The position numbers and the translations under genes are program-made. Source: Vibrio coralliilyticus (GTDB lineage Bacteria; Pseudomonadota; Gammaproteobacteria; Enterobacterales; Vibrionaceae). From it: a stretch of DNA of 64,000 nucleotides. How positions within the stretch are numbered: the first letter of the stretch is position 1; each line of letters opens with the position of its first letter. A model generated the notes under the pieces. That model saw only the letters and a list, made by a program, of their open reading frames with translations. It did no database searches and was not told the DNA's origin. The stretch covers positions 1-64,000 of the forward strand of contig NZ_CP024627.1 of the NCBI RefSeq assembly GCF_024449095.1. The letters run 5' to 3'. Below, one piece after another: positions 22,889 to 48,184 of the stretch.

Positions 22889-23003
22889 AAAGTCATTCTT
22901 TTTTCACATTCTCTCATCATCTCCCCAAGCTATATAACAAGATTGTTAAAAAGTTGACGTGTTATCAAACAGATAAATATTAAGTGGCCATGTGGGAGAA
23001 TTT

Positions 23004-23990
23004 ATGGGCTTAGCCATTATTTACAGTCGGGCATCAGTTGGGGTTGAAGCGCCCCCGGTGACGGTGGAGGTGCATATCAGTAATGGCATGCCGGGTTTCA
23101 CTCTGGTGGGATTACCGGAAACCACAGTCAAAGAATCACGTGACCGAGTGCGCAGCGCGATCATTAACTCTCGATTTGAGTTCCCAGCTAAGCGCATCAC
23201 GGTCAATCTTGCACCCGCCGATCTGCCCAAGGAGGGAGGGCGCTTTGATTTGCCGATTGCACTTGGCATTCTCGCTGCTTCAGAGCAGATCCCAATAGAT
23301 AAATTGGCGGAAAAAGAATTTGTTGGTGAGCTAGCGCTGTCGGGTGAGCTGCGCGGAGTTAAGGGGGTATTGCCTGCGGCGCTCGCAGCCAACAAAGCAC
23401 AGCGAAGCTTGGTCGTGCCGCATTACAATGGAGATCAAGCTGCCTTAGTGGGCGAAGAACAGCATAAATCTGCTCATAGCTTGCTGGAAGTGTGTGCTGA
23501 TCTTTGTGGCCAACAAAAACTTAGCCTGCACCAAACGCAAAACCTGTATCGAGCGGTGGAGAATGGCCGTGATTTACAGGACATCATTGGTCAGCAGCAA
23601 GGCAAGCGAGCGTTGGAAATTGCTGCGGCAGGGAACCATAACTTGTTGTTTTTGGGGCCGCCCGGGACGGGGAAAACCATGCTTGCCTCGCGCTTGTGCG
23701 ATTTATTACCAGAAATGAGTGACGATGAAGCAATGGAAACGGCGTCCGTGGCGTCATTGACTCAACAAGAGATTAATGCACTCAATTGGAAGCAGCGCCC
23801 CTTTCGTGCCCCACATCATTCAAGCTCTATGGCTGCTTTAGTGGGTGGAGGATCGATTCCAAGACCGGGTGAAATTTCTTTGGCACACAATGGCTTACTC
23901 TTTCTTGATGAAAGGCTATTAACCCCAATAATTAAAAAATCTCAAAATACTGTTAAGTTTTTGAATATTAATGATTTAAATTCCATTTAA
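23004..23990 (+). pseudogene. comM: comM (yifB), 5' part, cut by the genomic island
   Basis: ComM is a hexameric AAA+ helicase that moves branches during homologous natural transformation. Codons 1-303 (to 23912) are intact: the N-terminal Lon-protease-like domain (VEVHISNGMPGFTLVGLPE), Walker A GPPGTGKT near residue 219, and Walker B LLFLDE at the very end. The island starts there, so the frame runs on for 25 foreign codons to 23990. The start is ATG 23004 behind GGGAG; GTG at 22992 is less likely. Lacking sensor and arginine-finger parts, the product should be inactive. Confidence 0.93.
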
Positions 23991-24005
23991 TACTCTAAAA
24001 TAACA

Positions 24006-24050
24006 TTGATAATAATCACATTGACAATTATGGTTCTTGTTAGTTGTCAA
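24006..24050 (+). promoter_or_regulatory. Candidate promoter and operator of the recombinase operon
   Basis: TTGATA (24006-24011) and TATGGT (24029-24034) with a 17-base spacer could be a promoter. A perfect inverted repeat TTGACAA (24021-24027) / TTGTCAA (24044-24050) overlaps it and may be a binding site for a repressor or for the recombinases themselves. No clear ribosome site precedes the first gene. Confidence 0.35.
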
Positions 24051-24066
24051 TTTATGAAATTTGGTT

Positions 24067-26409
24067 ATGAATGTAAAAACATTAAATGAGCTTTCTTTAT
24101 TAAAAACTGCACTGTCAGCGAAATACACTAACTACCTAACACTTGCTGCTGAATCTTCAGTCCACCCACGTTCTATACAGGCGGTATTGAATATTTATGC
24201 GGCTTACTGCTATTTGGTTGGTCAAAGCAATTACAGTGCACAGGGGATACTGAATGATTCAAGCTCACTTAATGCACACCTCCAGTCGTTAATTGGCTTT
24301 GTTTATAGCTGTGATGATATCACTATCAAACGCAGATATAACTTCGGCAATCGACTCAAAGGCCTCTTCCATTACATTGCGCAAGATAAGCATTTAACCT
24401 TGAATGAAATAAAGCTTTCGAGCGTTACAATCACAGAAGACGCTTCGAGTTGTCTGGCTCAGTTTCGAAAGCTCAATATAGATAAATCAAAAGCTGACTA
24501 CCTTGAAGGTTGGCAGGTGCTATCAAAAGAAGGCAAAGAATATGAGGCTTATCTTGATACGCTTTATGTTAATTTTGGTGAAGCGTTTACAAACAAGGTT
24601 CATCTTGCTCTTAAAAACTATGCTTTTACACAAAAATCCACATCTCTGCATCAGGCGTTAAAAGAACTCAGAAACCTTTTTGTGGGTTTCTCCACTGTTT
24701 ATGACGACCGAGATAGACTAACAATAGAAGCCCTTCTAAGTCGTAATCATGTGCAGCCATTCTTCCACAAGGTGTTTAAAGTGCTATTTGTGCGCTCTCA
24801 AGCTGCTCAGAACTGCCCAAAGAATTTTCATGATAAGTGGCGAGATTCCATTAACTATTATACAGAGTGTTTTATCAACAAGGGTGTTTTTGCTGAGCCC
24901 CACAAACCATTCATTGTTCCAGCCTGGAAAGACCCAAAAGATGCAGCGCCCACCTTTTCAATCGGCGGAAATGCTACGCAGTCAGAAAACCTTCGATGGT
25001 TTGCTAACATCCCGCTCAAAATTAAAGGCGAAGAGGCTGTTTCAATTATTCAACAACGTGTAGAGAGAGACATGGCGCATATCAAGCATGTGTGTCTCTT
25101 GAAATTTGAAGAGTTTTTAGAGCGAGAGGATAGAAATAAGGCTTTTCAGAGCACAGGCTCCGTCAAACCACTGGATAGCAGTAACAACAGCACCCAAGAA
25201 TATAATAACTTTGTCGGTACAGACAAGCTAGACAATACAGTAGCAACCTTTTATGCACACGGCATCGCTGCAAAAGACACTTATTATTTATCATTTTTAG
25301 GGTTTAGCTGTAATGCTAAGCAACTCAACACCGAGTTAAATCTCCCAACCAAATCAACACTGAATGTTCTTTTGACGCTTCTTGTGATGGAGCATCCTCG
25401 AATCACACCCTCTTGGTTAGCAAAGTGGGACTTATTTGATGTAAATGGCAATATGGTGGGCTATAAGCAAGTTGGTAACCAGCACATTGCGGTCAGTTGC
25501 AAATCACGCAAAGGAGCGACCAATGCGCAGCAAGAAGTAGTGCTCAATGAGTTTTCTAAATCTATAGTGGAGTTCCTGATACAGCATACTCGTATGAGCC
25601 GTGAATACCTGAAGCAAAAAGGGGATGTGAATTGGCGAAAGATGATTTTGACTGCAACCATTACCAATGCGATGCACCCAAGTAGCCTCAATGCCACTCT
25701 TCATTCGGCAATTGACTTTTATGATTGGCTTAAAGACAAATCACTCTTTGATAAGAGCAGCGATATCACCTTGAAAGATGCTAAAGCCATTTCTGATATT
25801 CATTCACTACGCTCAATCAGACGACACAGAGGCTTTCAAATTTATTTGGAAACACGCTCAATGGATGCCGTTGCCGAGGCGCTTGGACATGAAAAGAAAG
25901 ATGCAAACCTACTGACCTCTTATCTTCCTAAACCACTCATGGATTTCTTTAATGCACGTTGGATACGCCAGTTTCAGAACGCTATTTTACTTGAAGCAAT
26001 GAAAGATTCAGTGCATCGACTTGATGCTGTGAATATGAATGCTCAAGATATCGAAGAGTTTTTAAGTAACCACGGCATAAGTAATATTACTGAGTATTTC
26101 GATCATGGTTTTACTCAGCAAACTACTGACAGTGAAAGTTCTGAATCATTAGAATTTGACCAGTTGACATACACCATCTCGACACCTCTTTTGCAGTTAT
26201 TAATGGCAATACGCCTTGTTGTTGAGAGAAGTGATGATGAGGAATCTTTTTTAGATATTGTGGCTCACTGGTATCAATCAGCAGTGTTTGTTTTAGATAC
26301 CCTGACTTCAGGTAAGCATAATGCTGATGATGATTTAATGGGAATGCTTGATATTGCAAGCAATAACAAACTAGACACTGACTCGATCAAGGGAGTGCTG
26401 CTATGTTAA
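24067..26409 (+). CDS. Large tyrosine-recombinase-like protein, first catalytic Arg replaced by His
   Basis: The protein has 780 residues. The C-terminal part has the tyrosine-recombinase layout: an Arg-I region reading TNAMHPSSLN, where the usual arginine is a histidine (about residue 537), then HSLR/RRHRG (579-587), LGH (605-607) and a candidate nucleophile Tyr in LTSYLPK (619). The long N-terminal half has no motif I recognise. The missing Arg suggests an auxiliary rather than a catalytic role, like the recombinase-fold protein of strand-biased circularizing elements. Its stop overlaps the next start by seven bases. The start is ATG 24067; TTG 24061 is also possible. Confidence 0.8.
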   Translation: MNVKTLNELSLLKTALSAKYTNYLTLAAESSVHPRSIQAVLNIYAAYCYLVGQSNYSAQGILNDSSSLNAHLQSLIGFVYSCDDITIKRRYNFGNRLKGLFHYIAQDKHLTLNEIKLSSVTITEDASSCLAQFRKLNIDKSKADYLEGWQVLSKEGKEYEAYLDTLYVNFGEAFTNKVHLALKNYAFTQKSTSLHQALKELRNLFVGFSTVYDDRDRLTIEALLSRNHVQPFFHKVFKVLFVRSQAAQNCPKNFHDKWRDSINYYTECFINKGVFAEPHKPFIVPAWKDPKDAAPTFSIGGNATQSENLRWFANIPLKIKGEEAVSIIQQRVERDMAHIKHVCLLKFEEFLEREDRNKAFQSTGSVKPLDSSNNSTQEYNNFVGTDKLDNTVATFYAHGIAAKDTYYLSFLGFSCNAKQLNTELNLPTKSTLNVLLTLLVMEHPRITPSWLAKWDLFDVNGNMVGYKQVGNQHIAVSCKSRKGATNAQQEVVLNEFSKSIVEFLIQHTRMSREYLKQKGDVNWRKMILTATITNAMHPSSLNATLHSAIDFYDWLKDKSLFDKSSDITLKDAKAISDIHSLRSIRRHRGFQIYLETRSMDAVAEALGHEKKDANLLTSYLPKPLMDFFNARWIRQFQNAILLEAMKDSVHRLDAVNMNAQDIEEFLSNHGISNITEYFDHGFTQQTTDSESSESLEFDQLTYTISTPLLQLLMAIRLVVERSDDEESFLDIVAHWYQSAVFVLDTLTSGKHNADDDLMGMLDIASNNKLDTDSIKGVLLC

Positions 26410-28814
26410 GTGTTACTATCGACAACTCCTCCACAGCTAACCTTATTGAGAGCATCGTGCTAGACCATTCGCTTTTGAACGGTCTAAGGGCCGAGATTCT
26501 TGAAGAAATTATCAATTTCTCAGTATCAAATGATGACTATCGAGCTTTAGATATCATTACGAACTTCCATACAGGCATCTACGGTTACGATGACAGACAA
26601 CCCGAATGGTTAGAATCTAGTTTTCCTGCAAACAAATGGGTACTAACATTTGGCAAAACCCCAAAAACGATACATTGGGACACGGTTTACTTGGATGACG
26701 GAAAGAAACTCACCGACATAAAGCATCAAAAGTTATTAAACAGCTTTAAATACTGGATTACGGCAGCAGATAATCCACTTGAAAATGGTGGGAAGATTAT
26801 TAGTCCAATAACGGCTTATCATAAAGTTAACAAAGTTATCGCTCTCATCAATGCTATCTTGCTGCACTCGGAAGAATTGAAGCTAGCAAAATACTACTTT
26901 CTGAATGTGAATGATGACTTCTGGCTGAACATCTTGACGAAATACGCCAAACACGGAAGTTTTCAAGGTGTGTATGAGATGGATAAGCGCACTCAGGTAT
27001 TACTTGATAACGCTTCTAAGAGTGTTTCTGATGCAGACGCACAAACGTTTAAAGAGAAGTTCCCCTACGTTACACAAGACATTGCGCAAGATGAAAGTTT
27101 CTTATTTCTAGTAGAGAGAGAAAAGGCGTGCGCTTGGCTCTTTGAACAAGGCTATTATCACGCTAGAGAAAGCATAAAATACACTGGCAGCAGTGCTATA
27201 CTGGGTGAGCTGTTATTTAAAGGTAAGATGCTTTATCACGACATTAACCTCCCCAACTACGCAGAGCTTCATCTCAAAGCGCTAAAGCGAAACTCAGAGT
27301 ATCGTGCAGTTGAGAGTAGAGACATCTCAACAGGCACGAACCAACGAGCTATCTCGAGCTACATTGAAGCAATTCAATTGATTTATACCAACCTTGAGCG
27401 TAAAGATGCGGCAAGTCCTCCAATCTTGTCCGAGCGTATCAGTTCAGGTCACATTAACCAGTTAGTTAGCTTAAAAAGAGCAGGGCGCACCCGCACCTTG
27501 TCGCCTACCTTTGTGTTTAATTTAATTCGTCAGTGCTATGAGTTTGTCAAAGAGCATCTACCTACAAAGGAAGGTAATGTTACTTTACTGGATGAAACAT
27601 TAACGCTGCTGTCTAAAGCAAGAAACAAATCTGTTGAAGATAATTCCAACACACTCCGTCCATCTGAATACTCCAAAGCTTGGAACGAAGAATTGCATCG
27701 AGATATGTCTGCTACAGAGCGAGGTTACTGGTTTCAAACGGAGGCGATCAATTGCCTGAGTAGTGAATACTTGAAAAAAGGAATAAAACAGGTTCAAGGC
27801 TTTGCTAAAAGTACTGAAAATCGACACGAAAAGATTCGAGCTAATGAGAGCCTGTTTGATTTGTTCTCTGTGCTTCAAGGCGCAATACAGGTCTTGGTGG
27901 GGGCAATCATGGCACGAAGACAAGATGAGTTAATCAAGTTGAAGCCACATGGCAATTTATCACCTAGTGTTAATCCCTTTTCAGAAGAAGGTGTAAAAAC
28001 AGAGTACAACCTGATAATTAAGGTAAAAAAAACTGGATCAAAAGGGATAAACGCAACAATAGAAAGACCAATTCCCTTATCTATCGCAAGGTTCATTTGG
28101 CAACTGGAGCAATTTAACATCAAAGCAAGTGAGTTGAATCTATGCAAAGGAAAGTTATCTCTGTTTAACAAACTTAATTCAATGGTTACTCAGTTAAATG
28201 AGATTAATCACAAGACTTATAATGCGCACCTTGATTATTTGTGTGATTACATGGAAACGGACTTGGTAGAGTACGACAACGGTGAGTACCGCCGTAATTA
28301 TGTTCGTCAGCACCAATTGAGACGCTTCTTTGCTATGGCGTTTTTCTGGTCTAAGGGTACTGATGGTATGGACGCCCTGCGCTGGATTCTCGGACATTCA
28401 GATATGGAACATCTATACCACTATATCTCCGAATCGGAAACAGGGGCTGTACTAAACGGAGCTAAAGCCAGTGTAATTGTTCGTGGTGTGGTCGATTCCT
28501 CTTCTGAACTAGCGAAGCTCGAAGGGATCGAAGAGGTTCGTAAAATCATTGCAGAGCGCCTGACAGATGATAGCTCAACACCAATCACTATAGAGTCACT
28601 GAGTGAAGCGGCAGAAGATTACGATGATGAGTCTTATCTAACCGTCCCTCATATAAGCCAGCTTCAAAAAGAGCAGGATATTGAAACAGAGGTTATTCAG
28701 CTTTTAGAAGAGGGTCGAATCACGCTTGAGCCTGAGTTCTTTACCATCGAAGATACTGATGGAAATACAACTCAAACCTTTAATCTAATTTTAAAGATCA
28801 AAGACCTTGATTGA
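26403..28814 (+). CDS. Large tyrosine recombinase with complete catalytic set
   Basis: The 803-residue protein is a site-specific recombinase of the lambda-integrase superfamily. It shows Arg I in MARRQDEL (about 505-506), a beta-strand Lys region (KVKKTGSKG), HQLRRFF (His 637, Arg 640), LGH (His 665) and Tyr in HLYHYIS (about 672-674). The N-terminal 450 residues are family-specific and unrecognised. It should cleave and rejoin DNA through the tyrosine at element ends. It overlaps the preceding gene and is followed by the small coiled-coil gene, so the four genes form one unit. It is much larger than phage integrases (300-450), closer in size to Tn554 TnpB. Confidence 0.85.
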   Translation: MLSVTIDNSSTANLIESIVLDHSLLNGLRAEILEEIINFSVSNDDYRALDIITNFHTGIYGYDDRQPEWLESSFPANKWVLTFGKTPKTIHWDTVYLDDGKKLTDIKHQKLLNSFKYWITAADNPLENGGKIISPITAYHKVNKVIALINAILLHSEELKLAKYYFLNVNDDFWLNILTKYAKHGSFQGVYEMDKRTQVLLDNASKSVSDADAQTFKEKFPYVTQDIAQDESFLFLVEREKACAWLFEQGYYHARESIKYTGSSAILGELLFKGKMLYHDINLPNYAELHLKALKRNSEYRAVESRDISTGTNQRAISSYIEAIQLIYTNLERKDAASPPILSERISSGHINQLVSLKRAGRTRTLSPTFVFNLIRQCYEFVKEHLPTKEGNVTLLDETLTLLSKARNKSVEDNSNTLRPSEYSKAWNEELHRDMSATERGYWFQTEAINCLSSEYLKKGIKQVQGFAKSTENRHEKIRANESLFDLFSVLQGAIQVLVGAIMARRQDELIKLKPHGNLSPSVNPFSEEGVKTEYNLIIKVKKTGSKGINATIERPIPLSIARFIWQLEQFNIKASELNLCKGKLSLFNKLNSMVTQLNEINHKTYNAHLDYLCDYMETDLVEYDNGEYRRNYVRQHQLRRFFAMAFFWSKGTDGMDALRWILGHSDMEHLYHYISESETGAVLNGAKASVIVRGVVDSSSELAKLEGIEEVRKIIAERLTDDSSTPITIESLSEAAEDYDDESYLTVPHISQLQKEQDIETEVIQLLEEGRITLEPEFFTIEDTDGNTTQTFNLILKIKDLD

Positions 28815-28825
28815 GGATTGGGACG

Positions 28826-29356
28826 ATGAAAGTTTTAGAAAAAAACCAAACTAAGATACTTGAAACAGAAAAGCTGTTAAGGGAAATAATCACATCTCCC
28901 ACTGAATTTAAAGATGATGAAGAGCTTATAAAGGCTCTTAAATCACAATCTGGCTTATCTAAATATCAGAATGAAGAGCGTAATATCACATCATGCTCAT
29001 TAAACACGGTAAAAAGCATCTCAGAAGCACTTCTAGAGAGAGGTTTCTTATCGTTAGATGAGCTTCGTATTAATGCAAAACTGGCAATAGAGGCTACACA
29101 TCTTGATGAGAAAGCTTCCAAAGGCAACAAGCAAACCGTAGTGGGCCTAAAGTTCAAAGTTGCAAAGCTTGAATCAGAGGTGGATGCAGCACAGCGTAGC
29201 AATTCTCTACTGACAGTTATGGTCTCAGAGCTACGCTCTAGGTTAAAACAACTAGCGAATCATGAGGGAACAGTAGAAGAGCGACGGGAGCTTTATCGAG
29301 AGCACAATCGGAAGGTTGAAGCGCAGATGAATTTCACTTTGAATGGAGAGGTATGA
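28826..29356 (+). CDS. Small coiled-coil accessory protein of the recombinase operon
   Basis: The protein has 176 residues from ATG 28826, chosen because a GGGA ribosome site lies just upstream; TTG 28811 would overlap the previous stop. Residues about 95-165 are rich in heptad-like charged/leucine patterns (KFKVAKLESEVDAAQRSN, MVSELRSRLKQL), so a coiled coil is likely. No enzyme motif is visible. Position and size recall TnpC of Tn554 (about 125 residues) and the small accessory protein of strand-biased circularizing integrative elements. Its stop overlaps the next start as ATGA. Confidence 0.7.
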   Translation: MKVLEKNQTKILETEKLLREIITSPTEFKDDEELIKALKSQSGLSKYQNEERNITSCSLNTVKSISEALLERGFLSLDELRINAKLAIEATHLDEKASKGNKQTVVGLKFKVAKLESEVDAAQRSNSLLTVMVSELRSRLKQLANHEGTVEERRELYREHNRKVEAQMNFTLNGEV

Positions 29357-30723
29357 TGGCTGTTCGTAAGCTTAAAGGCTTTGAGCAATGGAGTCATCTT
29401 GGGTTTGATGGCAAGCTTGTCTTTCGTAAGCCTCTGGACATTCCTTTCGTAACCTACAGTAATCATACTCCTTGTTATGAAGCCAATGCCTACATCAACA
29501 GTTTGATGGCGAGAAACTTAAAAAGTGACACTATTCGAGGTTATGCCTACGACATCATCCACTTGGTTCACTTTATTGAAAAACAGCCACTATTGAGCCG
29601 GTTTAGTCAACTTACTAATGCAACATTCACTCTTTTCGTTCAATCACTACAGGCAGAGAGAACGCAACTTGGCGAACTAAAGCGTAAGAATAACTCCGTT
29701 ATAAAGATTGCACATACCTGTTTGGTTTTTTTGCAGTTTATCCAAGAGTTTCATGATTTGAGTGCTTTTATTGGCAAAGATAAAGGTAACTCAATTCAGA
29801 TACTAGAGAAGTATTACAGACGCAAACAGGAAGGTTACAAAGGTTTCATTGAAGGCTCTAAAATTACGCACCCTGCTATACCAACGAAAGATGAGATTAA
29901 GAAACGCCACCCTGTTTCTTCTGATGATGCTTTACGTGTATGGGAGCATATAAAGACTCAGGAAAACAAAGATAAACGTAGAAGGGACATGGCGCTATAT
30001 ACTGCAATGGAGCAGTTAGGTGGTCGAGTGTCTGAGCTTCATTTGATTAAAATGACCGATTACGAGGAAGCAAGGCGTACCGGTATGCTCACGCTTACTA
30101 CTTTAAAACGTAAAGATGAGAACACAACTCGAAAGATACCAGTTCCACACCTATTATTATCAGTGATTGCAGATTACATCAAAGTTCGCAAGAAAGTCGT
30201 AAGGAAGAAAAAAGTCCAACATGATTACCTGTTTATCAGCTTAAAAACAGGTCTACGCCTATCCGCCGATTCATGGACAACGTACATGAACTTATGGAAA
30301 AAAGAGCTAGGTATCGAGGGAGAATTGCACCCGCACCTTTGGAGGCATGCATTCATTACAGATAAGCTCAAAGAGCTTATTCTTGCTTCTAAAGAAGTGA
30401 ATGATAAAGATGATTTCCGAAAGCATTTACTGCACACACAAACGTTTAAAATGCAACTTCAGCAGTGGACAGGCCATACAAATCTTAGCTCTTTAGATAC
30501 TTATATTGACCTCGCATTTGCAGATATTCACGGCTACACAGAGGTTTATAATGCAGTATCTCTTAAGTCGAGTGTTGACTTGGCAAAGCGTCAGATTGAG
30601 TTGTTAGAAGAACAGATAGCAAGGAAGGAGTTAACGCCTACCGCAGCGCTCGGAGAGATGAAGAGACTGTTAGGTGCTTTTCAATCTGATATAGATAAAA
30701 GCATTGTATCTTCGTCACAGTAA
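29353..30723 (+). CDS. Tyrosine recombinase, third of the block
   Basis: The 456-residue enzyme has an N-terminal SAM-like core-binding domain (about 45-170) and a C-terminal catalytic domain with a full set: GGRVSEL (Arg 225), the Lys-containing LTTLKRKDENTTRKIPVP, HLWRHAF (His 328, Arg 331), TGHTNLSS (His near 374) and Tyr in LDTYIDLAF (near 383). Together with the two larger recombinases it probably carries out excision and insertion of the island at comM. Tn554 and related elements likewise need more than one recombinase. A coiled tail follows the catalytic domain. Confidence 0.88.
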   Translation: MMAVRKLKGFEQWSHLGFDGKLVFRKPLDIPFVTYSNHTPCYEANAYINSLMARNLKSDTIRGYAYDIIHLVHFIEKQPLLSRFSQLTNATFTLFVQSLQAERTQLGELKRKNNSVIKIAHTCLVFLQFIQEFHDLSAFIGKDKGNSIQILEKYYRRKQEGYKGFIEGSKITHPAIPTKDEIKKRHPVSSDDALRVWEHIKTQENKDKRRRDMALYTAMEQLGGRVSELHLIKMTDYEEARRTGMLTLTTLKRKDENTTRKIPVPHLLLSVIADYIKVRKKVVRKKKVQHDYLFISLKTGLRLSADSWTTYMNLWKKELGIEGELHPHLWRHAFITDKLKELILASKEVNDKDDFRKHLLHTQTFKMQLQQWTGHTNLSSLDTYIDLAFADIHGYTEVYNAVSLKSSVDLAKRQIELLEEQIARKELTPTAALGEMKRLLGAFQSDIDKSIVSSSQ

Positions 30724-30972
30724 AAGCCATCACCAAACGGTCATGTAACATGTCTTTGGACAGAAATTAGTTCCGCAAATCAGAACATTAATATGTAATG
30801 AATTAAGTGAAGTATGGAAAAGTCGCTTAACTTGGTGCCTGGCATTGATGATGAGGATCTCATGAAGCAAGCACACATTGTCTTTGACTTGATAATATTG
30901 TGATAATTAATATGAGATTTGTTCCATATTTGTGTTTTTAACCATCACTATTTTTCCAATGTTGAGGTGTGC

Positions 30973-32466
30973 ATGAGAAATCGTTCTATTTTTGGGTGGA
31001 AGCTAAGTGAGAGTAGAGTTGTTTCTGTTGTTGAGCTAGAAAGTGGCACTCAGGATGACGTTGTCTGTCCTTGCTGTGGAGACTTCATGGTTGCCGCACA
31101 TAGTAATAAAGGCATAGCTAGCTACTTACGCCATCAAAGTAACGCAGAATGTCGCTACTCGTATGAAACCCAGTTGCATTTAAGTGCAAAGGAGTTCATC
31201 GAGCGGGAGAAGCTCATTCCTCATCCATATTCCAGTGGCATTTTTGATTCTAGTGATTGTGAAATGGTAGGTGTGAAAAATGTTCGTCTAGAAGTCTATC
31301 GAGACGGAAGGATTCCAGATATCGTCTGCCAGATCGGTAGGGAAGAGTATTACGTGGAAGTTACTAATACTCATGAAACCCCACCAGATAAAATAGTTGA
31401 CTTTCGAAAGCAGGGTAGGAGTGCCCTTGAGTTATTTCTAGTTGGATTGGACTCAGATTCGCTGCTGAGCAGCTATGAAAATGTAAAAGTTCAGATAACA
31501 GCATTAAATCCTCTAAATCCATTCTGGGATTTTATTGAGCAGCAAGCTGCGATGAGTATCAGCAAAGAAAGAAGTACGTTGTTGAGAAAGATAGCAAGGC
31601 ATCGCAAACAAGTTCAAAGAATTACTGGAAACATTTCTGAGCGTGAGGAACAAGCTGAAGAAAAAGTTGCCCGAATAAAACAAAGAGTTGAAAAGTGGCA
31701 AGAAAAAGAGCGGGAGCAAAAAGAGCTCTATAAGCAGATAAAGTCCCTAGCGAGTGATCTTCAAGTTGCGGTACTGCGGCTTGAAGAAGAGAAGTCATCA
31801 TTAAATCAAGAATTAGAACAACTCAAGCAAACCATCTATCTTAGCAAATTAGAAGCGGGAAGAATCATTAACAATGCGAGAGTTGAAGCAGAACAACAAC
31901 GTGAAAAGGTCAGAATAGAAGTTAGAGGTAGCGTTCTAGCTGAGTTAGCTACGGAAGTAGAAGATGCTAGAAAGAATGCTCAAATGATTACCGATAATGC
32001 TCTAAAGCAAGAGTTATCAGTGGTTGAAAGTGCTCAAAGAACAGCGCAACAAATATTGGATGGAGCACATTACAAAATCACGAGTGAGCTTGAAGCTGCA
32101 CTTGCTAGAAAAGGTGTATCAAATGAAGCGTTGACCGAGTTAGAAAACCGTGTCAAATGGCTGAAACAAGAAACGGAGTGTCTAGAGGAAAAGAAAGCTG
32201 AGTTAGAGAGTGGCGTTAATTTAGATAGACTTTGGAGTAAACAACAAGACTTGCAGAGGGCGATTAGTAAGGAAACAAATCGTTTGAATGATCTTAAAGA
32301 AATCGGTGATAATTATGTCAAAATCATTAACGGTATTGCTCTAGATTTCAAACAGCTAGATACGGCAGAGTATGCCTCTCTTTTGCCTGAACGTATTCAA
32401 AAGAAAATAAAAGTTAATCGAATGATCTTAGAGATGCAAAACTCAATAGAATACGAGCCGCTGTAA
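30973..32466 (+). CDS. CoiA-like PD-(D/E)XK nuclease with long coiled-coil tail
   Basis: The protein has 497 residues from ATG 30973, behind GAGG; a TTG at 30919 is unlikely. The N-terminus has a zinc-finger-like CPCCGDFM (about residue 36) with later His/Cys (LRHQSNAECRYSYETQLHLSAKEF), the pattern of competence protein CoiA-like nucleases. Next come RIPDIVC (catalytic Asp) and EEYYVEVTNTHE (Glu) near 117-140, typical of a PD-(D/E)XK fold. From about 205 to the end it is almost all charged coiled coil. It is a single gene behind the recombinases. A role as a DNA-cleaving defence effector or element-processing nuclease is an inference. Confidence 0.7.
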   Translation: MRNRSIFGWKLSESRVVSVVELESGTQDDVVCPCCGDFMVAAHSNKGIASYLRHQSNAECRYSYETQLHLSAKEFIEREKLIPHPYSSGIFDSSDCEMVGVKNVRLEVYRDGRIPDIVCQIGREEYYVEVTNTHETPPDKIVDFRKQGRSALELFLVGLDSDSLLSSYENVKVQITALNPLNPFWDFIEQQAAMSISKERSTLLRKIARHRKQVQRITGNISEREEQAEEKVARIKQRVEKWQEKEREQKELYKQIKSLASDLQVAVLRLEEEKSSLNQELEQLKQTIYLSKLEAGRIINNARVEAEQQREKVRIEVRGSVLAELATEVEDARKNAQMITDNALKQELSVVESAQRTAQQILDGAHYKITSELEAALARKGVSNEALTELENRVKWLKQETECLEEKKAELESGVNLDRLWSKQQDLQRAISKETNRLNDLKEIGDNYVKIINGIALDFKQLDTAEYASLLPERIQKKIKVNRMILEMQNSIEYEPL

Positions 32467-32758: not shown

Positions 32759-35302
32759 TTAATGAGAGACTTCCACCAAAGCAGGTGTGGCAACTTCAGC
32801 TTCTATGATGCTTTGCACTTCTGAATACAAATCCACTTCCACTTCTGGTACAGATAATGACACCACTAACGCGTATCGAGCTTTGGAATCATATCGCTCA
32901 TGAGCTTTACGAGTTTTCCACCACCCCTTGGCAGGGTATATTGCAATCTTACCTCTAGCAGCCAAATCAGCAGCGCTGCCTCTCCAAACATCTTTATGGA
33001 TAGAGCCTTTATGTCGTTGCTGTTTACCTATGAGCCAATTACTATCTTCGATTGCATCTGGCCTATCCCCCTCAGCTTGTGCGTTGACTCTTCGCATAAA
33101 TTGGGCATCAGATTCACCGTGGTGTTTCACATCAAACCTTAACTGATGACTAGCATAGTTATACTTATCTAAGACATTGCGGCTTGAAGGGTTAGGTTCA
33201 ACAAAATAGGAGAGTGTAACCGTCAGTTCAACATCAGCTTCGCCAATTTTCAACAGTTCCTCTTGCGGCCAAGGCAGGTTATGCAAGTGCATATCTTTTG
33301 TTCTTGTATCTTTAGAACGAGGTTTAATAAAAGGCTGTAACTCATCTTGAATCACCATCGAGAGCGAGTTGTCGGCACTGCTTAACGCTTTTTCAAGGTT
33401 AGGTACACCATACCCTACCTTTCTGACCAACTTCACCATGTCTGCTTTTCTAATGGTGCCGCCTCGCCGTGCAGAAATTAATGCATACATTGCATCAGTC
33501 CAATCTGCGGAATGCACGGTTAAAGCCCTAACCGTTTCTGGCCAAATATCACTATATTGAGCTTTTATCTGCGCTGAGAACCTAGCAGCCAAAGCAGTAG
33601 CTGCACTCGTTGCGTGTGTGGTTGCAAACTGTCTTTGAGAGAAGTCACTGTTCGTCGTTAAAAGATGAAGATCTGGTTCATCACCACAAAATCCATCTTC
33701 TGCTTTCGCCAAATTTCCACCCTCAAATACGACTTCTGGCTTGAATGGAGCGTTACTTTTATCCCAACCTAGAGATGTTGTCGAATATGGTGATAACCCG
33801 CCTTTGGGAGCTAAAGGGACTAAGTCGGCAGAGAAAGACAGCCGGTCTTTTTCCGTGAAAGCACCAACAGTAAGAACATTCCAAGCCTGAGCAGGGTCAT
33901 GAACATTACTCAAGTAGTTAGCATTAGGGTAATCTACATTGGCATCTAGCTGGGCATTACCAGCACACACTGTGAACAAGCGCGGTGTTAAGCCCTCTCC
34001 AGAAAAATCTACTGCCAGCATATCCATTGCACTAGACCATGATGACGGCCGCCCTCTATCTGTACCTATACCTGACGACAGCGACATCGAGAAAACTCTA
34101 GAGCGTTCAGGCTTGTATATCTCCATTTCAGATACCGCATTAGTGGTAACGATACCCAGAGGCTTGTCAGCATTGTCACCATTAAACCTCATGGTTTTGA
34201 CCGACTCTAATCGATGCCCAACCACCTCAACTCCTGATGAGCTTAACCTTTCGGTCATATCTCCCCAAATAGCTAAGCCAGCCATTCCTGTTCCATGACC
34301 TAAAGCATCAGTAGGGTCGCTGTCTTCTGTTATAGTTCTCTGGTCAGATGGCGTTGAAAAAGGAGCAAGCAATGGGTGCTGAACATTAACACCTGAATCT
34401 ATAATACAAACATAAGGTGACTCATCGGAAGTGTTAGAGTTAAGACGCTGTAGCAGTTCTTCTGTCCACCCCTCCTGCTCCTCATTCGGCATTGCAGCAA
34501 AAAATTCAGCGGTAACTTTCGGGAACCGTATCTCAGCCACTCGAAACAATAAAGCGGCGTTTTCTTCTAATTTTCTCTGGTTTGTATACAACTGAATGAC
34601 AGTATGTTCGGGGAATCGAAGCTTGTGCTCTGAGACAACCATTTCAGCCATACTTGCCAAGTGTGTAAAGTCAGCCAAGATTTCTTGGTAGTGATTGTGT
34701 GTTTGGCGAGACTTTCTAGGTGTAGCCAACCAAACTTCCCACCATACATTCTCATCCTTATCTTCAGGCAACAATGTTTCGTCATCAGCCCAAATGGCAG
34801 AGAAAGTGGCACGCTTAATATTTTTTATTGAGTCAATGAGTTTCTGGTGATCACCAGCCCTTCCACCAGATAGCACCCTACGTTCCTCGTACTCATTGAG
34901 CTTCTTCTGGTAAAAACTCAGTTTTCCTTCAGGAACATACGCAGTGGCAATTGTGGTTTTGTGGCCTTCTTCCAGTTCTACTGTCTTGACGTTATGCAAC
35001 ACAATACCCTGAGGGTCATTCGCCAAACTCTCTACTGCCATCGCCACATCAGGAAAACTTTCAAACTCAACCTGAATACCAACCCCCATACTCAACTCAT
35101 TAGAAGATACAGATTGTTTCAACTCGGAAAATTCGCTCGCAACAGATTGAATATTTTGGCGTAGGTGAGCGCTATGAATGGCTCTGTCTTTAGCAGGAAT
35201 GGTTACTGGCCCACCACCACCTCGATTTGGTGAGGTAAACTCATGAGAACTAGCTGAAGAATTAAAAAAGAAGTGGGGTTTATCAAATTCGTTGCGAGCC
35301 AT
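32759..35302 (-). CDS. Subtilisin-family (S8) serine protease, IetS-like
   Basis: The 847-residue cytoplasmic protein has no signal peptide. The subtilase triad is visible: Asp in CIIDSGVNVQHP (about 301), His in LGHGTGMAGLA (about 336) and Ser in THATSAATALAAR (about 565). A long N-terminal region and a C-terminal beta-rich region flank the protease. It lies 12 bases after an AAA ATPase gene in the same direction. This ATPase-subtilase pair is the arrangement of IetAS, first described for plasmid incompatibility/stability and later reported as a phage-defence system. Substrates are unknown. Confidence 0.85.
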   Translation of the reverse strand: MARNEFDKPHFFFNSSASSHEFTSPNRGGGGPVTIPAKDRAIHSAHLRQNIQSVASEFSELKQSVSSNELSMGVGIQVEFESFPDVAMAVESLANDPQGIVLHNVKTVELEEGHKTTIATAYVPEGKLSFYQKKLNEYEERRVLSGGRAGDHQKLIDSIKNIKRATFSAIWADDETLLPEDKDENVWWEVWLATPRKSRQTHNHYQEILADFTHLASMAEMVVSEHKLRFPEHTVIQLYTNQRKLEENAALLFRVAEIRFPKVTAEFFAAMPNEEQEGWTEELLQRLNSNTSDESPYVCIIDSGVNVQHPLLAPFSTPSDQRTITEDSDPTDALGHGTGMAGLAIWGDMTERLSSSGVEVVGHRLESVKTMRFNGDNADKPLGIVTTNAVSEMEIYKPERSRVFSMSLSSGIGTDRGRPSSWSSAMDMLAVDFSGEGLTPRLFTVCAGNAQLDANVDYPNANYLSNVHDPAQAWNVLTVGAFTEKDRLSFSADLVPLAPKGGLSPYSTTSLGWDKSNAPFKPEVVFEGGNLAKAEDGFCGDEPDLHLLTTNSDFSQRQFATTHATSAATALAARFSAQIKAQYSDIWPETVRALTVHSADWTDAMYALISARRGGTIRKADMVKLVRKVGYGVPNLEKALSSADNSLSMVIQDELQPFIKPRSKDTRTKDMHLHNLPWPQEELLKIGEADVELTVTLSYFVEPNPSSRNVLDKYNYASHQLRFDVKHHGESDAQFMRRVNAQAEGDRPDAIEDSNWLIGKQQRHKGSIHKDVWRGSAADLAARGKIAIYPAKGWWKTRKAHERYDSKARYALVVSLSVPEVEVDLYSEVQSIIEAEVATPALVEVSH

Positions 35303-35314
35303 TCAGGTTCCTTC

Positions 35315-36295
35315 TTACTCCATAAAGTGCTGGCTAATACTCTTTCTGTCTTCAATTGCCTGTTGAAGCATTGTGATGGTAATTGAGTTGTGGTCATGAA
35401 TAAGCATTTCTTTAATTGCATCATTTGCAGCTAATGTAATTTCAGCATTACTTAACCCGTCAGCAATTGCTGGAAGCTTCCTCCAAGAGAAATTCTTAGC
35501 GACATAAGAATGCAAACGCGTTCTGAAAAGCTTGATAATTTCCTCTTCTGATGGAAGTTGATATTTAATGACATCATCAAAACGGCGGAAAAGAGCGTGG
35601 TCTAGTGCTTCAATATGGTTCGTAGCACAAACGATGACACTATTAGAGTCATCTTGTTCAATCATCTGCAAAAAGCTATTAAGAATACGCCTAGCTTCCC
35701 CTACGTCATTACTTGAGCCACGATGAGAGCCTAAGGCATCAAACTCGTCAAAAAAGTAAACCCCTCTTACCTCTCGAATAGTATCAAAAATCTGGCGTAG
35801 CTTAGCTGAAGATTCTCCGAGGTACTTTGTAATAACAGCATCAAGGCGAACCTCAAACAACGGAAAGTTTAGCTCGCCCGCCAAAACGGACGCAGTAAAG
35901 GTTTTTCCTGTGCCTGGCTTACCTGCCAGTAGCAGCTTTCTACGGGGGGAGAGACCATGATTCTTTAAGGTGATGAGGTGTTTTTGCTCTTTAACCAACC
36001 TTTCAAGCTTACTTTTAACAGAAAGTGAGACAATAAGGTCAGAGAAGCGTAGTTGTGGGTGGGTTGTAGCTAATAGGCCCGAAGTATCCTTAACACTGCT
36101 AGCAATCGAAACAGGTAGGTTTTTAGCGCTATTCTTTTTTGCTTGCTCAACTAACCCCTTGAGCTCTTGCGCGAGTTTTCCATGACCATTTCTTGCTTCA
36201 TGAGCGGCAACCTGAAGTGCGACAGATAAAAATCTGTCGTCATCTTTATCGATGTGCGATTGCATCAAAGCTTTAATTTGAGTCGAGCTAGCCAT
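35315..36295 (-). CDS. AAA ATPase partner of the subtilase, IetA-like
   Basis: The 326-residue AAA ATPase has Walker A LLLAGKPGTGKT near 121-132, Walker B GVYFFDEFDALG near 174-185, an N-rich sensor 1 (VIVCATNHIEALD) and an arginine-finger/second-region segment ALFRRFDDVIKYQLP near 238-252. The N-terminal 90 residues are helical. It is the upstream gene of the two-gene operon with the S8 protease. By analogy with IetA it may recognise or unfold a target and pass it to the protease, or gate its activity. The promoter must lie in the gap 36296-36711. Confidence 0.85.
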   Translation of the reverse strand: MASSTQIKALMQSHIDKDDDRFLSVALQVAAHEARNGHGKLAQELKGLVEQAKKNSAKNLPVSIASSVKDTSGLLATTHPQLRFSDLIVSLSVKSKLERLVKEQKHLITLKNHGLSPRRKLLLAGKPGTGKTFTASVLAGELNFPLFEVRLDAVITKYLGESSAKLRQIFDTIREVRGVYFFDEFDALGSHRGSSNDVGEARRILNSFLQMIEQDDSNSVIVCATNHIEALDHALFRRFDDVIKYQLPSEEEIIKLFRTRLHSYVAKNFSWRKLPAIADGLSNAEITLAANDAIKEMLIHDHNSITITMLQQAIEDRKSISQHFME

Positions 36296-36711: not shown

Positions 36712-38094
36712 TCAAATGCAGCGGAAGGCTTCTATCACTCTTTGATTGAACTCATCTAAGCAGAGGTGTTGTGGCATGGTCTTGTTATCGCTTTTTAAGA
36801 GAGTTTCATTTCTAGCTGAAGTCTCCCATGCTAATGTTTCGTTCATTAGTTCTTTTTCACCTTTAGGATCTGAACGTGGGTCTTTCTCTGTGAGTCCACT
36901 TAGCTCTTGATTCCCCCGAGTGTTTTTACTTATACAAGTACAGCTCTCTGGTATGTCTATCTCGATTTGCTCAGCGAATTGAAGTAACTTTGCCTCAGCA
37001 AACGTATACAGCCATGCTTCTTGGTGGCTATCCGCAGTGGTTCGCAAGATCCGCCCTAGTACTTGTCTGAAGTATAATTCCGTCTTAATGTTTGAGAGGT
37101 AACAACATACCTGCAACCTTGGAATATCTGTGCCCTCACTTATCATACCTACGCTAATAATCCAACTGCGCGAGCTATTTCTAAAACACTGAATTACAGA
37201 CTGTGCGTCTGGGGTTTTATAGGTAACAACATTCGCAGATTGATTGAAGCGCTCTGACAGAATTTGAGCTATTTGGTTTGCGTGCTTTATAGACGAAGCG
37301 ACGATTAGCCCACCGGCACGTTTGTTTGATTTTCGGATGAGAGTTAATCGATTTACACTTTCTTCAAGAATGTGGCTGAGCGCATCAATATTTTTGATTA
37401 CATCCGAATAACCAACATGACCACTAGATACTAGCTCGTGAATCGAGCTAAACACTTCGTGGTTTTTTGAATCGGAAAAAATGGTCTTCTCACAATCAAT
37501 CAATGCAATCTTGGGGCGTCGACACACCTGATCTTGGACTGCTTGTGAAAGGGGATATTGGTAATCACAAACTATTCGACCATCTGGATCCGAGTATGTA
37601 GCGAGAACCACAGGAGTCTGATTGGAACGCCAAGGTGTTCCTGTGAGTGCAAGTGTATAGGTTGCTGCCTTTTGGACTATTGCCAAGGTATGGTAGCCCC
37701 AAGCATTGTAGTTGTCGTCTTTGTCGCCACCACAATGATGAATCTCATCAAAAACACAAAGCACTCGATAGTTTGCGAGTGTGTCCCAAAACTCTGTATT
37801 CACCGACCTAAGCGACTGGTACGTCAATGATATGCCCCTATCGCCAATTTGCCCCTTGAACTTACATTCCAAATATTTTGAGAATGTTTTCTCGATTCCA
37901 TTTGAAATGGTTTTTGAAGGAGAGAAACAGACAATAAAGTCTATCATCTCCTTATCTAGCAGTTTCTTGGCTAGGCTAGCAGCCATAATTGTTTTGCCAG
38001 CTCCTGGCGTTGCCTGAGCCAAAAAATGAGAACCACCACTTTTGTACTTATTGTACGCGAGCTTGACGCATTGCTGTTGCCATGCTCTTAACAT
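36712..38094 (-). CDS. DEAD/DEAH-box (superfamily 2) helicase
   Basis: The 460-residue SF2 helicase-like ATPase of the ResIII/UvrB-like group shows motif I ATPGAGKT near 29-36, motif II FDEIHHCGG near 113-121, motif III LALTGTPWRS near 148 and motif VI QVLGRILRTT near 343. The last 80 residues are polar and carry no nuclease motif that I see. It is translationally coupled to the upstream winged-helix gene by a seven-base overlap. Such helicases are common in restriction and other defence modules. The set does not match a named system that I recognise. Confidence 0.82.
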   Translation of the reverse strand: MLRAWQQQCVKLAYNKYKSGGSHFLAQATPGAGKTIMAASLAKKLLDKEMIDFIVCFSPSKTISNGIEKTFSKYLECKFKGQIGDRGISLTYQSLRSVNTEFWDTLANYRVLCVFDEIHHCGGDKDDNYNAWGYHTLAIVQKAATYTLALTGTPWRSNQTPVVLATYSDPDGRIVCDYQYPLSQAVQDQVCRRPKIALIDCEKTIFSDSKNHEVFSSIHELVSSGHVGYSDVIKNIDALSHILEESVNRLTLIRKSNKRAGGLIVASSIKHANQIAQILSERFNQSANVVTYKTPDAQSVIQCFRNSSRSWIISVGMISEGTDIPRLQVCCYLSNIKTELYFRQVLGRILRTTADSHQEAWLYTFAEAKLLQFAEQIEIDIPESCTCISKNTRGNQELSGLTEKDPRSDPKGEKELMNETLAWETSARNETLLKSDNKTMPQHLCLDEFNQRVIEAFRCI

Positions 38095-38636
38095 GGCATC
38101 GGCTCACTTTTACTCAATTGCTTAAGTGCTTCTGACCAAACGTTCAGTTTTGCTACAAGTGATGCGGCTTTTTTAGTTGTGCTCAAGTGTGGTTCATTGA
38201 GTAGTCTGCACAGCTCATTCGAACGCTTCATTAATATTTTGTATTCTTTGAGCTCTTCCAAGGTAATAGTGAGTTCAGCTTCAATGTCAGATTTTTCTTG
38301 TTGTAGAGCGGTATAAATAGGCATCGACTGACACTTTGTCGTGGCTGATTTTGAACCCTTTGAACCCTTCTCTTTGAGCTCAAACCTTACCTCATTAAAG
38401 GCACTTGTTTTTGAGTAAGTCTTGTTGTGCCTAACCCCTTGGCTAACAACAAATCCAGCCTTTTCAAGTCTATCAAGCTGCCTTGCAACAAATTGACGAG
38501 CGTTAGATACGCTGCCATATGCATCAGAGTAACTCTGAATATGTTTACGAACATCTGTCACGCGAAAGCTATTCATTGAAGGATGAGTTATCGCCCTGTA
38601 GACATCACGATTAATTCGATAATAGGTTTCGGTCAT
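38088..38636 (-). CDS. Winged-helix protein coupled to the helicase
   Basis: The protein has 182 residues. The N-terminal part (about 1-75) reads as a winged helix (VTDVRKHIQSYSDAYGSVSNARQFVARQLDRLEKAGFVVSQG), a Lys/Ser-rich linker follows, and the C-terminal part is a coiled coil (about 105-165). It starts the operon with the helicase and overlaps it by seven bases. A DNA-binding specificity or sensor subunit for the helicase is a guess from layout. It is divergent from the XRE gene, with 93 bases between the two starts. Confidence 0.7.
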   Translation of the reverse strand: MTETYYRINRDVYRAITHPSMNSFRVTDVRKHIQSYSDAYGSVSNARQFVARQLDRLEKAGFVVSQGVRHNKTYSKTSAFNEVRFELKEKGSKGSKSATTKCQSMPIYTALQQEKSDIEAELTITLEELKEYKILMKRSNELCRLLNEPHLSTTKKAASLVAKLNVWSEALKQLSKSEPMPC

Positions 38637-44740: not shown

Positions 44741-45991
44741 TTGAATTGGCTTATTCGCTTGTATATTAATAAAGTTTTTAATGTCGGTGGTGCTTGGGAA
44801 GCGTTGCGGGAAAACAACGCAACCGAGTTGTCAGAGTTGCAAGTAGCTTTAGCTAACTTGGGGGATGTCGACTCTATCATAAACATGAGAGATTGTGTTT
44901 TAAACAAACTGCACGAAATGGAGTGGCGGTGTCGGAACTATTCGGGAGGAGGAGCAGCTAGTTTCAAGGAATTCAAAGCCGTTCCATCTAAACCGAAGAT
45001 GATCCAGATGGTAGCTTTGAAAGGTGAGGTTGCAATAGATATTGGAATGAATATGCCTACAAGCTTAGATAGTTGGGTAACGTTTAGGTCTAAATCAGCA
45101 TCTTCTTTGGGCCTCATTCCTGTTTTAATAATGCCCTTGGATATTGGAGAGAGCAGCTCTTTCCGTATGAGTTTCGACTATGTGGTTCAGCGGATACAGT
45201 ATCTTGATATTGTTGAAGGAAATAGCTTTCTGATTCTAGGCTGTTCTTATGGTTACTCTGATATTGAGGTTATCGATTCAGATAAGGTCATCCGTAGAAC
45301 CATCACATTTGAACCTCACCAGATACAAGCCGGTGTGGGGCTGCTTTCTTACTTTAGTGAAGTGCTTAAACATAAGTGCTCGGAAGCGAATAGCAAAGTT
45401 TCCATTGAGCAAGATGGTGAGAAAGTTAGGCTTAGGATTAAGTCTGATGCAGGTACTGAGCAGAAGGTTGAAGCTTTACTTAATGAGTATGGTGAAGTCC
45501 TCAATGGTACTCGTCAGCCAGAGCAACTCATGACAGACCAAGTTCAATTGCTGTCGCTTCAAAATAAGTTGGATATGGCAGCTATGGAAGTGAAGCACCA
45601 ACAGAGTGTTCTGGCGCTAACCAAGTCTAATTATGACCAACGAATCTTTAGCCTAGAAGAGCAGATTGCTGATCTTAAACACATGCTATGTGAGAGCATA
45701 ACTTCACATCGGGTTGCTCAAGATCAGGTGTCTAAGCTGATAGATAAATATGGTAGCAATAGTGCTGTTGAATTAGAGTTGTTAGGTTTAGCAAAGAAGC
45801 TCGATGAGCGTGCGGCGGATGTTCAGAAAGAAGAATTAGAGCGAATAGTTAAACAGCTCCATATGGATAATCCGAAACTAGCAGCTGAGTTTCTCTCGTT
45901 GCTAAAGGGACCTCTTGAAGGGGTTGCAGGCAATATCATCTATTCTTGGTTGCCACAGTTGGGCAGTATCATTGGAATGGCTATTCGCTAA
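44741..45991 (+). CDS. Protein of unknown function with hydrophobic C-terminus
   Basis: The 416-residue protein starts at TTG 44741, because the nearby ATGs (44724, 44736) run at once into a stop and AAAGGA lies 5-10 bases upstream. Residues about 80-215 look beta-rich and globular. About 270-350 are helical with coiled-coil character (LSLQNKLDMAAMEVKHQQSVLAL). The last 25 residues (LEGVAGNIIYSWLPQLGSIIGMAIR) are hydrophobic and could insert into a membrane. I recognise no family. It is a single gene with its own perfect terminator among defence-like modules, so an effector or defence role is possible but unproved. Confidence 0.72.
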   Translation: MNWLIRLYINKVFNVGGAWEALRENNATELSELQVALANLGDVDSIINMRDCVLNKLHEMEWRCRNYSGGGAASFKEFKAVPSKPKMIQMVALKGEVAIDIGMNMPTSLDSWVTFRSKSASSLGLIPVLIMPLDIGESSSFRMSFDYVVQRIQYLDIVEGNSFLILGCSYGYSDIEVIDSDKVIRRTITFEPHQIQAGVGLLSYFSEVLKHKCSEANSKVSIEQDGEKVRLRIKSDAGTEQKVEALLNEYGEVLNGTRQPEQLMTDQVQLLSLQNKLDMAAMEVKHQQSVLALTKSNYDQRIFSLEEQIADLKHMLCESITSHRVAQDQVSKLIDKYGSNSAVELELLGLAKKLDERAADVQKEELERIVKQLHMDNPKLAAEFLSLLKGPLEGVAGNIIYSWLPQLGSIIGMAIR

Positions 45992-46033: not shown

Positions 46034-47023
46034 TTACTGCTGCCAAATTGGTGCTGTTGCTGCATCATAGAATTCTATTTCTATATCACGGACAAGAAAT
46101 CTATCTGCATTCGCCATTGCCTCTCGGTTCCATTCTTGATTTTTATCACCGAAGATACTGATGAAAACCTTGTTCACTCTGCTTTTATTAATCTGGTTGA
46201 ATATATGACGGTCATTCTCTGCTATTGAATGACCATGAATGTAGAGTGTACCTCGCAGCTCACCTAATGCTTGATAGCAAGCATTTAGATATGGACTATG
46301 TTTAATTTTCTCGAGCTTCTTTTGATGAGTGGGTTCAGATACAAACAGGGGAAATTCTCCTGCATCTAGCCATCGCCTTACTTGGTCAACGATCGCATCC
46401 CAATCCTCTTGGTCGTAGACTCGTTTATAAATACCTTGCTCGTTATTATAGAGGTGGAGACCACCATGCAGAAAATGTAAGTTTTGCGTGCGCTCTTGCC
46501 ATTCATTCCCATTAAAGCCATCTTTCATTCCACATCGTCGATCTGGTCTAAATGGAGGTAGATTCCATTTGTTTACGGCCCAATACAAAAGCAGGTCGAA
46601 ATTGAGAGAGAATATATTAGAAAAGCGGGTAAGGAATCTTCTGGTAGAGATAAACCTATCATCAGTAATCGAGCTAGGTCGATGAGGGTGGGTATTAGCT
46701 ATCACCTCTATTAGCGAGTCTTTTAACTGTTCTTGATCATCTTGAATCTGTTCGATGATACCCCTGTTTACGCCATAAGTTTTGCAGACTTGCTCTGCTG
46801 ATTGAAGCGCATGCATCACTTTTTCAAAGTCAAAAGTATCGAAACGGTCAAACACTTCTCTCAGCTCACGGTCGCTATCTCTAAAGTTGGCTTCATCAAA
46901 CAAGTTTTCATAGTTAAATGTTCTATTGCTCCATGCTCTAGAAAAACCATTTGCAAGTAGTATTGATGGCTGTTCCCCTAGTTCTAACTGTTCTAGGGTA
47001 TCTTCAAAAGTTTGTAGTGGCAC
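46034..47023 (-). CDS. DUF4917 protein, SIR2-like fold
   Basis: The 329-residue protein carries SIR2-like landmarks in order: SILLANGFSRAW near 20 (nucleotide-binding loop position), IFSLNFDLLLYW near 138 (the SIR2 N-F-D motif), LHFLHGGLHLY near 179 (the His-Gly motif), and LYIHGHSIAENDRHIF near 255. This pattern fits the DUF4917 family, a relative of SIR2/TIR-type NAD-using proteins. Many SIR2-fold proteins in such islands kill infected cells by degrading NAD+. That role is inferred, not shown. It is a single gene, with an 11-bp-arm inverted repeat just ahead of its start. Confidence 0.75.
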   Translation of the reverse strand: MPLQTFEDTLEQLELGEQPSILLANGFSRAWSNRTFNYENLFDEANFRDSDRELREVFDRFDTFDFEKVMHALQSAEQVCKTYGVNRGIIEQIQDDQEQLKDSLIEVIANTHPHRPSSITDDRFISTRRFLTRFSNIFSLNFDLLLYWAVNKWNLPPFRPDRRCGMKDGFNGNEWQERTQNLHFLHGGLHLYNNEQGIYKRVYDQEDWDAIVDQVRRWLDAGEFPLFVSEPTHQKKLEKIKHSPYLNACYQALGELRGTLYIHGHSIAENDRHIFNQINKSRVNKVFISIFGDKNQEWNREAMANADRFLVRDIEIEFYDAATAPIWQQ

Positions 47024-48170: not shown

Positions 48171-48184
48171 TTCTACCTAACTTT

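Follow-up and report, generated by a model that had tools for sequence, protein, structure and literature searches.

An island in comM of Vibrio coralliilyticus with a four-gene recombinase module that probably carries six bases from its donor's right flank to its new left edge

A four-gene operon of Vibrio coralliilyticus (RefSeq assembly GCF_024449095.1) raises the question of what it moves, into which site and by which route. It lies in the window, i.e. the whole stretch of 64,000 nucleotides analysed here (contig NZ_CP024627.1, positions 1 to 64,000, forward strand). An earlier note made from the letters alone had described the operon as three tyrosine recombinases and a small coiled-coil protein, likened it to Tn554 and to the Vibrio strand-biased circularizing elements (SEs), and suggested that it may form a separate branch targeting comM. 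Our analysis revealed that the four genes, here called T, B, S and A in their order, are the recombination module of an island of 27,833 bp (23920-51752) that splits comM at codon 304. Furthermore, the junctions of this island and of its relatives point to a footprint of six bases that records the previous site. The features concerned are as follows (all on the + strand; G and L numbers below are our handles for genomes and loci).

22992..23913, +: 5' part of comM, ending ...TTTCTTGATGAAA, with GATGAAA to 23913 as the left flank of the target
23914..23919, +: foreign left hexamer GGCTAT, the putative label of the previous donor site
23920..24060, +: left end of the element, TAACCCCAATAATT..., lying upstream of the operon and containing subterminal TTGACA/TTGTCA motifs
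24061..26409, +: T, 782 amino acids, tyrosine-recombinase-like, lacking a conserved Arg I and the His of HxxR but retaining K481, R587 and Y621
26403..28814, +: B, 803 amino acids, large tyrosine recombinase, R506-K543-H637xxR640-H665-Y674
28811..29356, +: S, small protein of 181 amino acids
29353..30723, +: A, 456 amino acids, tyrosine recombinase with the complete catalytic set (Pfam PF00589, 7e-13)
51715..51752, +: right end of the element, TTGACAACATTTCTTGATTAGATTCGATATTAGGAATA; right ends are conserved among the compared copies
51753..51758, +: native comM hexamer TGCCAG at the right junction, by comparison with other right junctions and with intact comM
51759..52366, +: 3' part of comM

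The junctions were placed by comparison with the intact comM of relatives and with other insertions. The proposed association with comM was confirmed, in that the TIGR00368 match is divided into residues 1-304 (23019-23915) and residues 303-499 (51749-52321) around the island. In the genus, the target reads GATGARA-TGCCNG-ARTT in 9/9 intact comM genes (L008-L016); intact comM genes from three further families in the order (L006, L007, L017) do not match this sequence. The left end of the element was conserved in ten close-clade comM copies. Ten left ends of 164 bases contained 17 TTGACA/TTGTCA motifs versus 1.1 in shuffles, a count that is not independent because the compared ends are related, and TTGACA was found 38 bases from the right end in 10 of 11 copies. 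In the window, ATTGACA/TTGTCA motifs occur near both element ends (24020-24050 and 51715-51752). The motifs may be candidate arm-type binding sites or an operator.

The two edges of the insertions behaved differently. Left hexamers were all different at the 14 junctions compared (the ten close-clade comM copies, the copy in G010 and three copies outside comM), and the right hexamer was TGCCNG at 12/12 comM junctions. How the left hexamer may arise can be seen in G305, which carries two copies identical over 21,676 bp: copy a (C1:1741140-1762815) and copy b (C2:737834-759509). Their identity stops exactly at the hexamers. Copy a reads CGCTTGTGAC-GCCTAC-element-CTGTAT-GAAG and copy b reads CAACCATGAT-GTACTT-element-GCCTAC-GTGA, so that the right hexamer of b equals the left hexamer of a (chance about 2 in 4096, counting both directions). 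The reverse match, between the left hexamer of b and the right hexamer of a, was absent, as expected. The right flank of a was present in 12 of the 14 genomes searched in the genus, G305 included, and the empty site was TGRC-CTGTAT-GAAG in all 11 other genomes with this flank. GCCTAC belongs to the native sequence at b, since the frame that is broken there, which resembles a VOC-family start, reads KMNHVGIMVGDMDK through it. Being native at b and foreign at a, the hexamer went from the right flank of b to the left junction of a, indicating the direction b to a; the donor copy b is still present in G305.

A second in-genome match was found in G482, where the left hexamer of a copy outside comM, TGCCCG, is also the one at the right junction of the broken comM in that genome. 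Furthermore, the comM copy of G416 has TGCCTG at the left and TGCCGG at the right, as if it had come from the comM of another strain. Overall, 2 of the 14 left hexamers fitted TGCCNG (chance fit 1 in 1024). Among the ten close-clade comM copies, that of G416 fits the comM type and that of G413, TGCCAT, is one base off; by the six-base rule, the other eight came from sites other than comM. Taken from the junctions, this rule would be that six bases travel from the right flank of the donor to the left edge of the new copy and that the donor persists.

The proteins of the module were examined next. As described in the earlier note, the genes form one operon, in which neighbouring frames overlap by 7, 4 and 4 bases, and two of the recombinases, T and B, exceed 780 residues. 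Catalytic residues of T, B and A were each scored over 30 homologues. The complete R-K-HxxR-H-Y set ascribed to the other two recombinases was borne out: in B, R506, K543, H637, R640 and Y674 were found in 30/30 homologues and H665 in 29/30, and in A, R225, K252, R331 and Y384 were found in 30/30 and both H328 and H375 in 29/30. In T, K481, R587 and Y621 were kept in 30/30 and GH in 27/30, and no homologue had His at the HxxR position. The claim that His replaces Arg I in T held only in part. Arg I is indeed not conserved and the conserved residue near its position is His445 (28/30), but the place given, about residue 537, was wrong, since 537 is variable and is Ala in the window. Residue 447 is Arg in the window copy, but its column reads R/K/Q/S/C/V/E/Q in an 8-row alignment. 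The predicted structure of T had a mean pLDDT of 84.2 and a pTM of 0.51; its putative recombinase fold is assigned on the motifs. S is probably a coiled coil, from reading of its sequence.

Together, these observations make it likely that T-B-S-A moves an integrative island by copy-out and copy-in, through a circle that carries the right-flank hexamer, with a polarity opposite to that of SEs. What the sequences themselves show are the ends, the target in comM, the path of the hexamer in two genomes and, in one of these, donor and daughter copies side by side; the protein roles, the circle, its replication and its strand bias we infer. B and A would be the pair with tyrosine recombinase activity; T would be a pseudo-recombinase that binds DNA or has an architectural role, and S a helper. 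The element circle would form so as to include the six bases beside the right end of the donor; at integration the carried hexamer would land at the left junction, and the six bases of the target itself would remain at the right. The donor copy would be kept, as proposed for SEs. Its presence in G305 is consistent with the SE-like lack of an empty donor site and with one-strand circularization.

Several points weigh against this proposal. The search pattern for right junctions itself required TGCC, and 3 of the 12 comM junctions (G349, G390, G010) were obtained through this pattern; a search based solely on the element end also recovered the other nine. Only two donor-daughter hexamer matches within a genome were obtained (G305 and G482), and for the eight close-clade comM copies with left hexamers unlike comM, and likewise for G010, donors were not found. 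T and B matched no recombinase profile in the profile-library searches, A being the only quartet protein that matched a recombinase model; sequence searches of the PDB with T and B found no recombinase, and the profile comparisons of T with B and of B with A gave nothing significant. Finally, coexisting copies can also result from cut-and-paste movement between sister chromosomes.

Could the island simply be a divergent SE or GInt with a shuffled gene order and no difference in kind? The module of SEs has four genes, which encode a small helper and three tyrosine recombinases, two of them with the full catalytic set and one degenerate; SEs leave a six-base footprint, use few target sites and occur in marine gammaproteobacteria (PMC10214605; PMC9345347). 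T-B-S-A is like them in each of these respects, and the same four kinds of proteins with similar catalytic sets would be expected from a divergent relative. Imperfect inverted repeats at the ends, as in SEs, point the same way (TAATCCCAATATT versus TTTTCCTAATATT, 10/13 in G305 by hand count). In profile comparisons, A matched IntA (E 5.1e-6, probability 86%) and B matched IntB weakly at the HxxR motif (E 0.0028, probability 11%). However, T versus Tfp (E 0.093) and S versus Srap (E 0.04), compared by hhalign with profiles built from 7 SE sequences, were not significant. The gene order also differs: it was intA-tfp-intB-srap in 7 of the 8 Vibrionaceae SE loci opened, the eighth being cut by a contig end (for pAQU1, bases 1-200000 of 204,052 were examined for the SE reference). 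Moreover, in SE-6945 the six bases beside the donor attL, on the intA side, go to the new attR (PMC9345347), whereas in G305 and G482 the hexamer beside the cargo-side end goes to the T side, i.e. the polarity relative to the operon is reversed. Identity of T-B-S-A with SEs was rejected on the gene order, the reversed hexamer route and the lack of a detectable relationship of T and S to Tfp and Srap. The resemblance to SE-type systems suggested in the earlier note was supported. A divergent SE or GInt without difference in kind is a possible though unlikely reading.

A conventional integrase that cuts the element out and pastes it in would explain the hexamers differently. Six-base coupling sequences are known in Tn916-like elements and in those resembling integrative and conjugative elements, and there the coupling hexamer would come from either flank and be resolved at random. 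Such resolution is disfavoured, since the foreign hexamer would then sit at the right about as often, whereas the native one was at the right in 12/12 comM junctions and in copy a of G305. The coexistence of two identical copies in G305 also speaks against it, and we regard this explanation as improbable. That the left hexamer is mutable DNA or part of the element end rather than a carried label is very improbable: variable terminal bases do occur in mobile elements and the in-genome matches are only two, but it is precisely at the hexamers that the two G305 copies cease to be identical, the GCCTAC match is hardly due to chance and G482 provides a second exact one.

We lean slightly towards a wider reading: that T-B-S-A is a third four-component class beside SEs and GInts, with a reversed end polarity of circularization; that each insertion records its previous address; that several islands reached comM from elsewhere; and that insertion in comM ties the spread of defence and toxin cargo to the loss of natural transformation. 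How Tn554, SE and GInt elements move has been described as unsettled (PMC10214605), and a class whose footprint is mirrored offers a natural control when asking which protein determines polarity. From the hexamer, donor sites can be traced with genome sequence alone, and past moves can be read from its trail. The comM product contributes to natural transformation, which has been proposed as a way of purging mobile elements (PMC4774983); the island breaks this gene while bringing anti-phage and toxin genes.

The suggestion of a branch with its own gene order was supported by a survey. T homologues were found at 53 loci when GTDB representative contigs were scanned with a limiting pattern, and the quartet genes were sought at these loci by tblastn (E 0.01). 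Throughout the analysis, paired entries that are apparently one record (e.g. G482/L044 and G349/L050) were counted once. All four genes stood in the order T-B-S-A at 46/53 loci, some being cut at contig ends (e.g. A in L045). A subset in that order was found at L058, L077, L085, L089, L090 and L095, and T alone at L073; no other order occurred among the 53. By record title, 16 loci belong to Vibrio or Photobacterium and 16 to Pseudomonas or Stutzerimonas, and the remainder include Moritella, Pseudoalteromonas, Colwellia, Acinetobacter, Hafnia and one Caballeronia. T also matched 12 plasmid records (Providencia 7, Pseudomonas 4, Acinetobacter 1). At E 0.001, T was found in 38 of 329 species genomes of the host family, eight of them weak partial matches (E 1e-6 to 1e-13), and in the order of the host in 4 of 295 genomes. 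In the class, at E 1e-15, it was found in 1 of 369 genomes, the window's own; this sample or cut-off misses T homologues, because the locus scan shows them in several other orders. A protein search with T gave 217 matches among 8000 scored candidates, the best 120 of the 217 being 79-100% identical.

The use of comM was examined across genomes. In 13 genomes (12 relatives and that of the window), the matched stretch of T shows at least 73% identity; ten of these have T beside a split comM, and T lies elsewhere in G482, G588 and G367. In G482, comM is also broken at the same codon, with the right end of the element beside the 3' half; in G588, comM is split near codon 202, and in G367 the comM DNA is continuous. 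The right ends of these three non-comM copies were not found by pattern search in the available stretches of the genomes. The copy in G010, 31-37% identical in pieces, is inserted at the same comM codon and has the same gene order, with T and B each in two open reading frames (ORFs). In 18 other genomes, comM was uninterrupted in 15 (one with a stop codon), split at another codon in G418 and G013, and broken another way in G345; comM targeting is thus not general in the family.

Some side observations concern the same gene. A second comM split place, at about codon 201-218, was seen in G007, G013, G418 and G588. At L077:14530-17116 (Caballeronia udeis), a T-B-A locus in which S was not detected, the 5' half of comM ends at the same codon (about 307), some 100 bases beyond A and in opposite orientation; this distant host thus shows the same target with the orientation inverted. 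A genome from a different family of the order (L029, G018:C41:176500-196400) has comM split at codon 304-307 by an insert of about 17.8 kb, where a search for T, B, S and A detected none of them; an unrelated element appears to use the same comM codon. In G416, the T gene of the comM copy (L146, G416:C1:3761900-3776600) is divided into two parts separated by about 2.6 kb, which probably reflects the insertion of a further element.

Several known systems share features with T-B-S-A. GInts (ginABCD) have three recombinase-like proteins, one without the first Arg, and a small fourth protein, and form cargo islands; their order is A-B-C-D, and their sites are in an ABC transporter gene, ssb and a reductase gene, with empty sites in some strains (PMC5385486). 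T-B-S-A is like them in its kinds of proteins and in carrying cargo but is set apart by the published order, in which ginD is last, whereas in T-B-S-A the small gene holds the third position and an integrase gene ends the operon. Tn554, with two recombinases, TnpC and a six-base footprint (PMC10214605), is similar in general make-up; it is set apart by its description as three genes (tnpA-tnpB-tnpC) with no counterpart of T. GMT islands are described as carrying phage defence and type VI offensive tools (PMC12715929), a cargo like that of our island. However, at 7/7 GMT loci opened (one below the GmtY cut-off), a GmtY-model protein was followed by ORFs of 880-1441 and 207-248 amino acids, and the GmtY model had no match at the quartet in a search of its own genome and a profile-library scan; membership was rejected on both grounds. 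GmtX and GmtZ had no NCBIfam match at the quartet, the presence of both models in the scanned library being unconfirmed. The GMT layout at L179-L185 is reminiscent of SEs and of T-B-S-A with one giant protein. RIT elements (three recombinases of 315-410 amino acids, all with the catalytic Tyr) were rejected, as the proteins here have 782, 803 and 456 amino acids and a fourth gene is present.

Earlier descriptions bear on the novelty of the element. VPaI-8 of Vibrio parahaemolyticus AQ3810 is a 17 kb island between VP3057 and VP3058 with two integrases separated by one ORF (PMC2491623, 2008), and its first listed ORF, A79_5175, is a T homologue (84% identical). It appears to be a T-B-S-A-type island. 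Of five locus tags looked for in the literature, one turned up, in this paper. The earlier note named an already published element of like target site and gene order as evidence against a separate branch, and VPaI-8 partly answers to this; the passage on VPaI-8 names no target gene, element class, ends or mechanism (PMC2491623). Mobile genetic elements are known in comM of Aggregatibacter, Acinetobacter, Mannheimia, Francisella and Pseudomonas, mostly grouped by one integrase, CF65_00446, and have been proposed to block transformation (PMC4774983). No description of the quartet as a class was found in the open-licence literature, preprints being outside the scope. What the present analysis adds are the element ends, the proposed six-base rule and the polarity reversed relative to SEs.

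Between the module and the right end, the island of the window carries the following cargo.

30919..32466, +: protein of 515 amino acids with no clear function (weak matches only)
32759..36295, -: IetS protease and IetA ATPase, an anti-phage pair (PADLOC IetS 1.9e-42, IetA 4.2e-71)
36712..38636, -: RadD-like helicase and a partner of 182 amino acids
39135..43810, -: Tox-PAAR-like protein (942 amino acids), AHH nuclease-like ORF, Imm11 immunity protein and an ORF of 158 amino acids without match
44741..45991, +: ORF of 416 amino acids without match
46034..47023, -: DUF4917 protein, matched by PADLOC PDC-S21 (5.9e-119)
47526..51166, -: ORF of 214 amino acids and SIR2-domain protein of 993 amino acids (SIR2_2, 1.1e-13)

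Finally, T-B-S-A loci from distant hosts were compared with each other. The near-identical groups resembling the Providencia plasmid and from Stutzerimonas had no obvious common ends, as judged by the extent of shared DNA only. Five loci (L024, L069, L070, L071 and L084) were 99.0-100% identical over 6.5-12 kb, although their hosts are Providencia (on a conjugative plasmid), Neiella, Acinetobacter, Thalassolituus and Colwellia, which suggests recent wide spread. In the Providencia record, the near-identical locus adjoins an annotated class A beta-lactamase gene.

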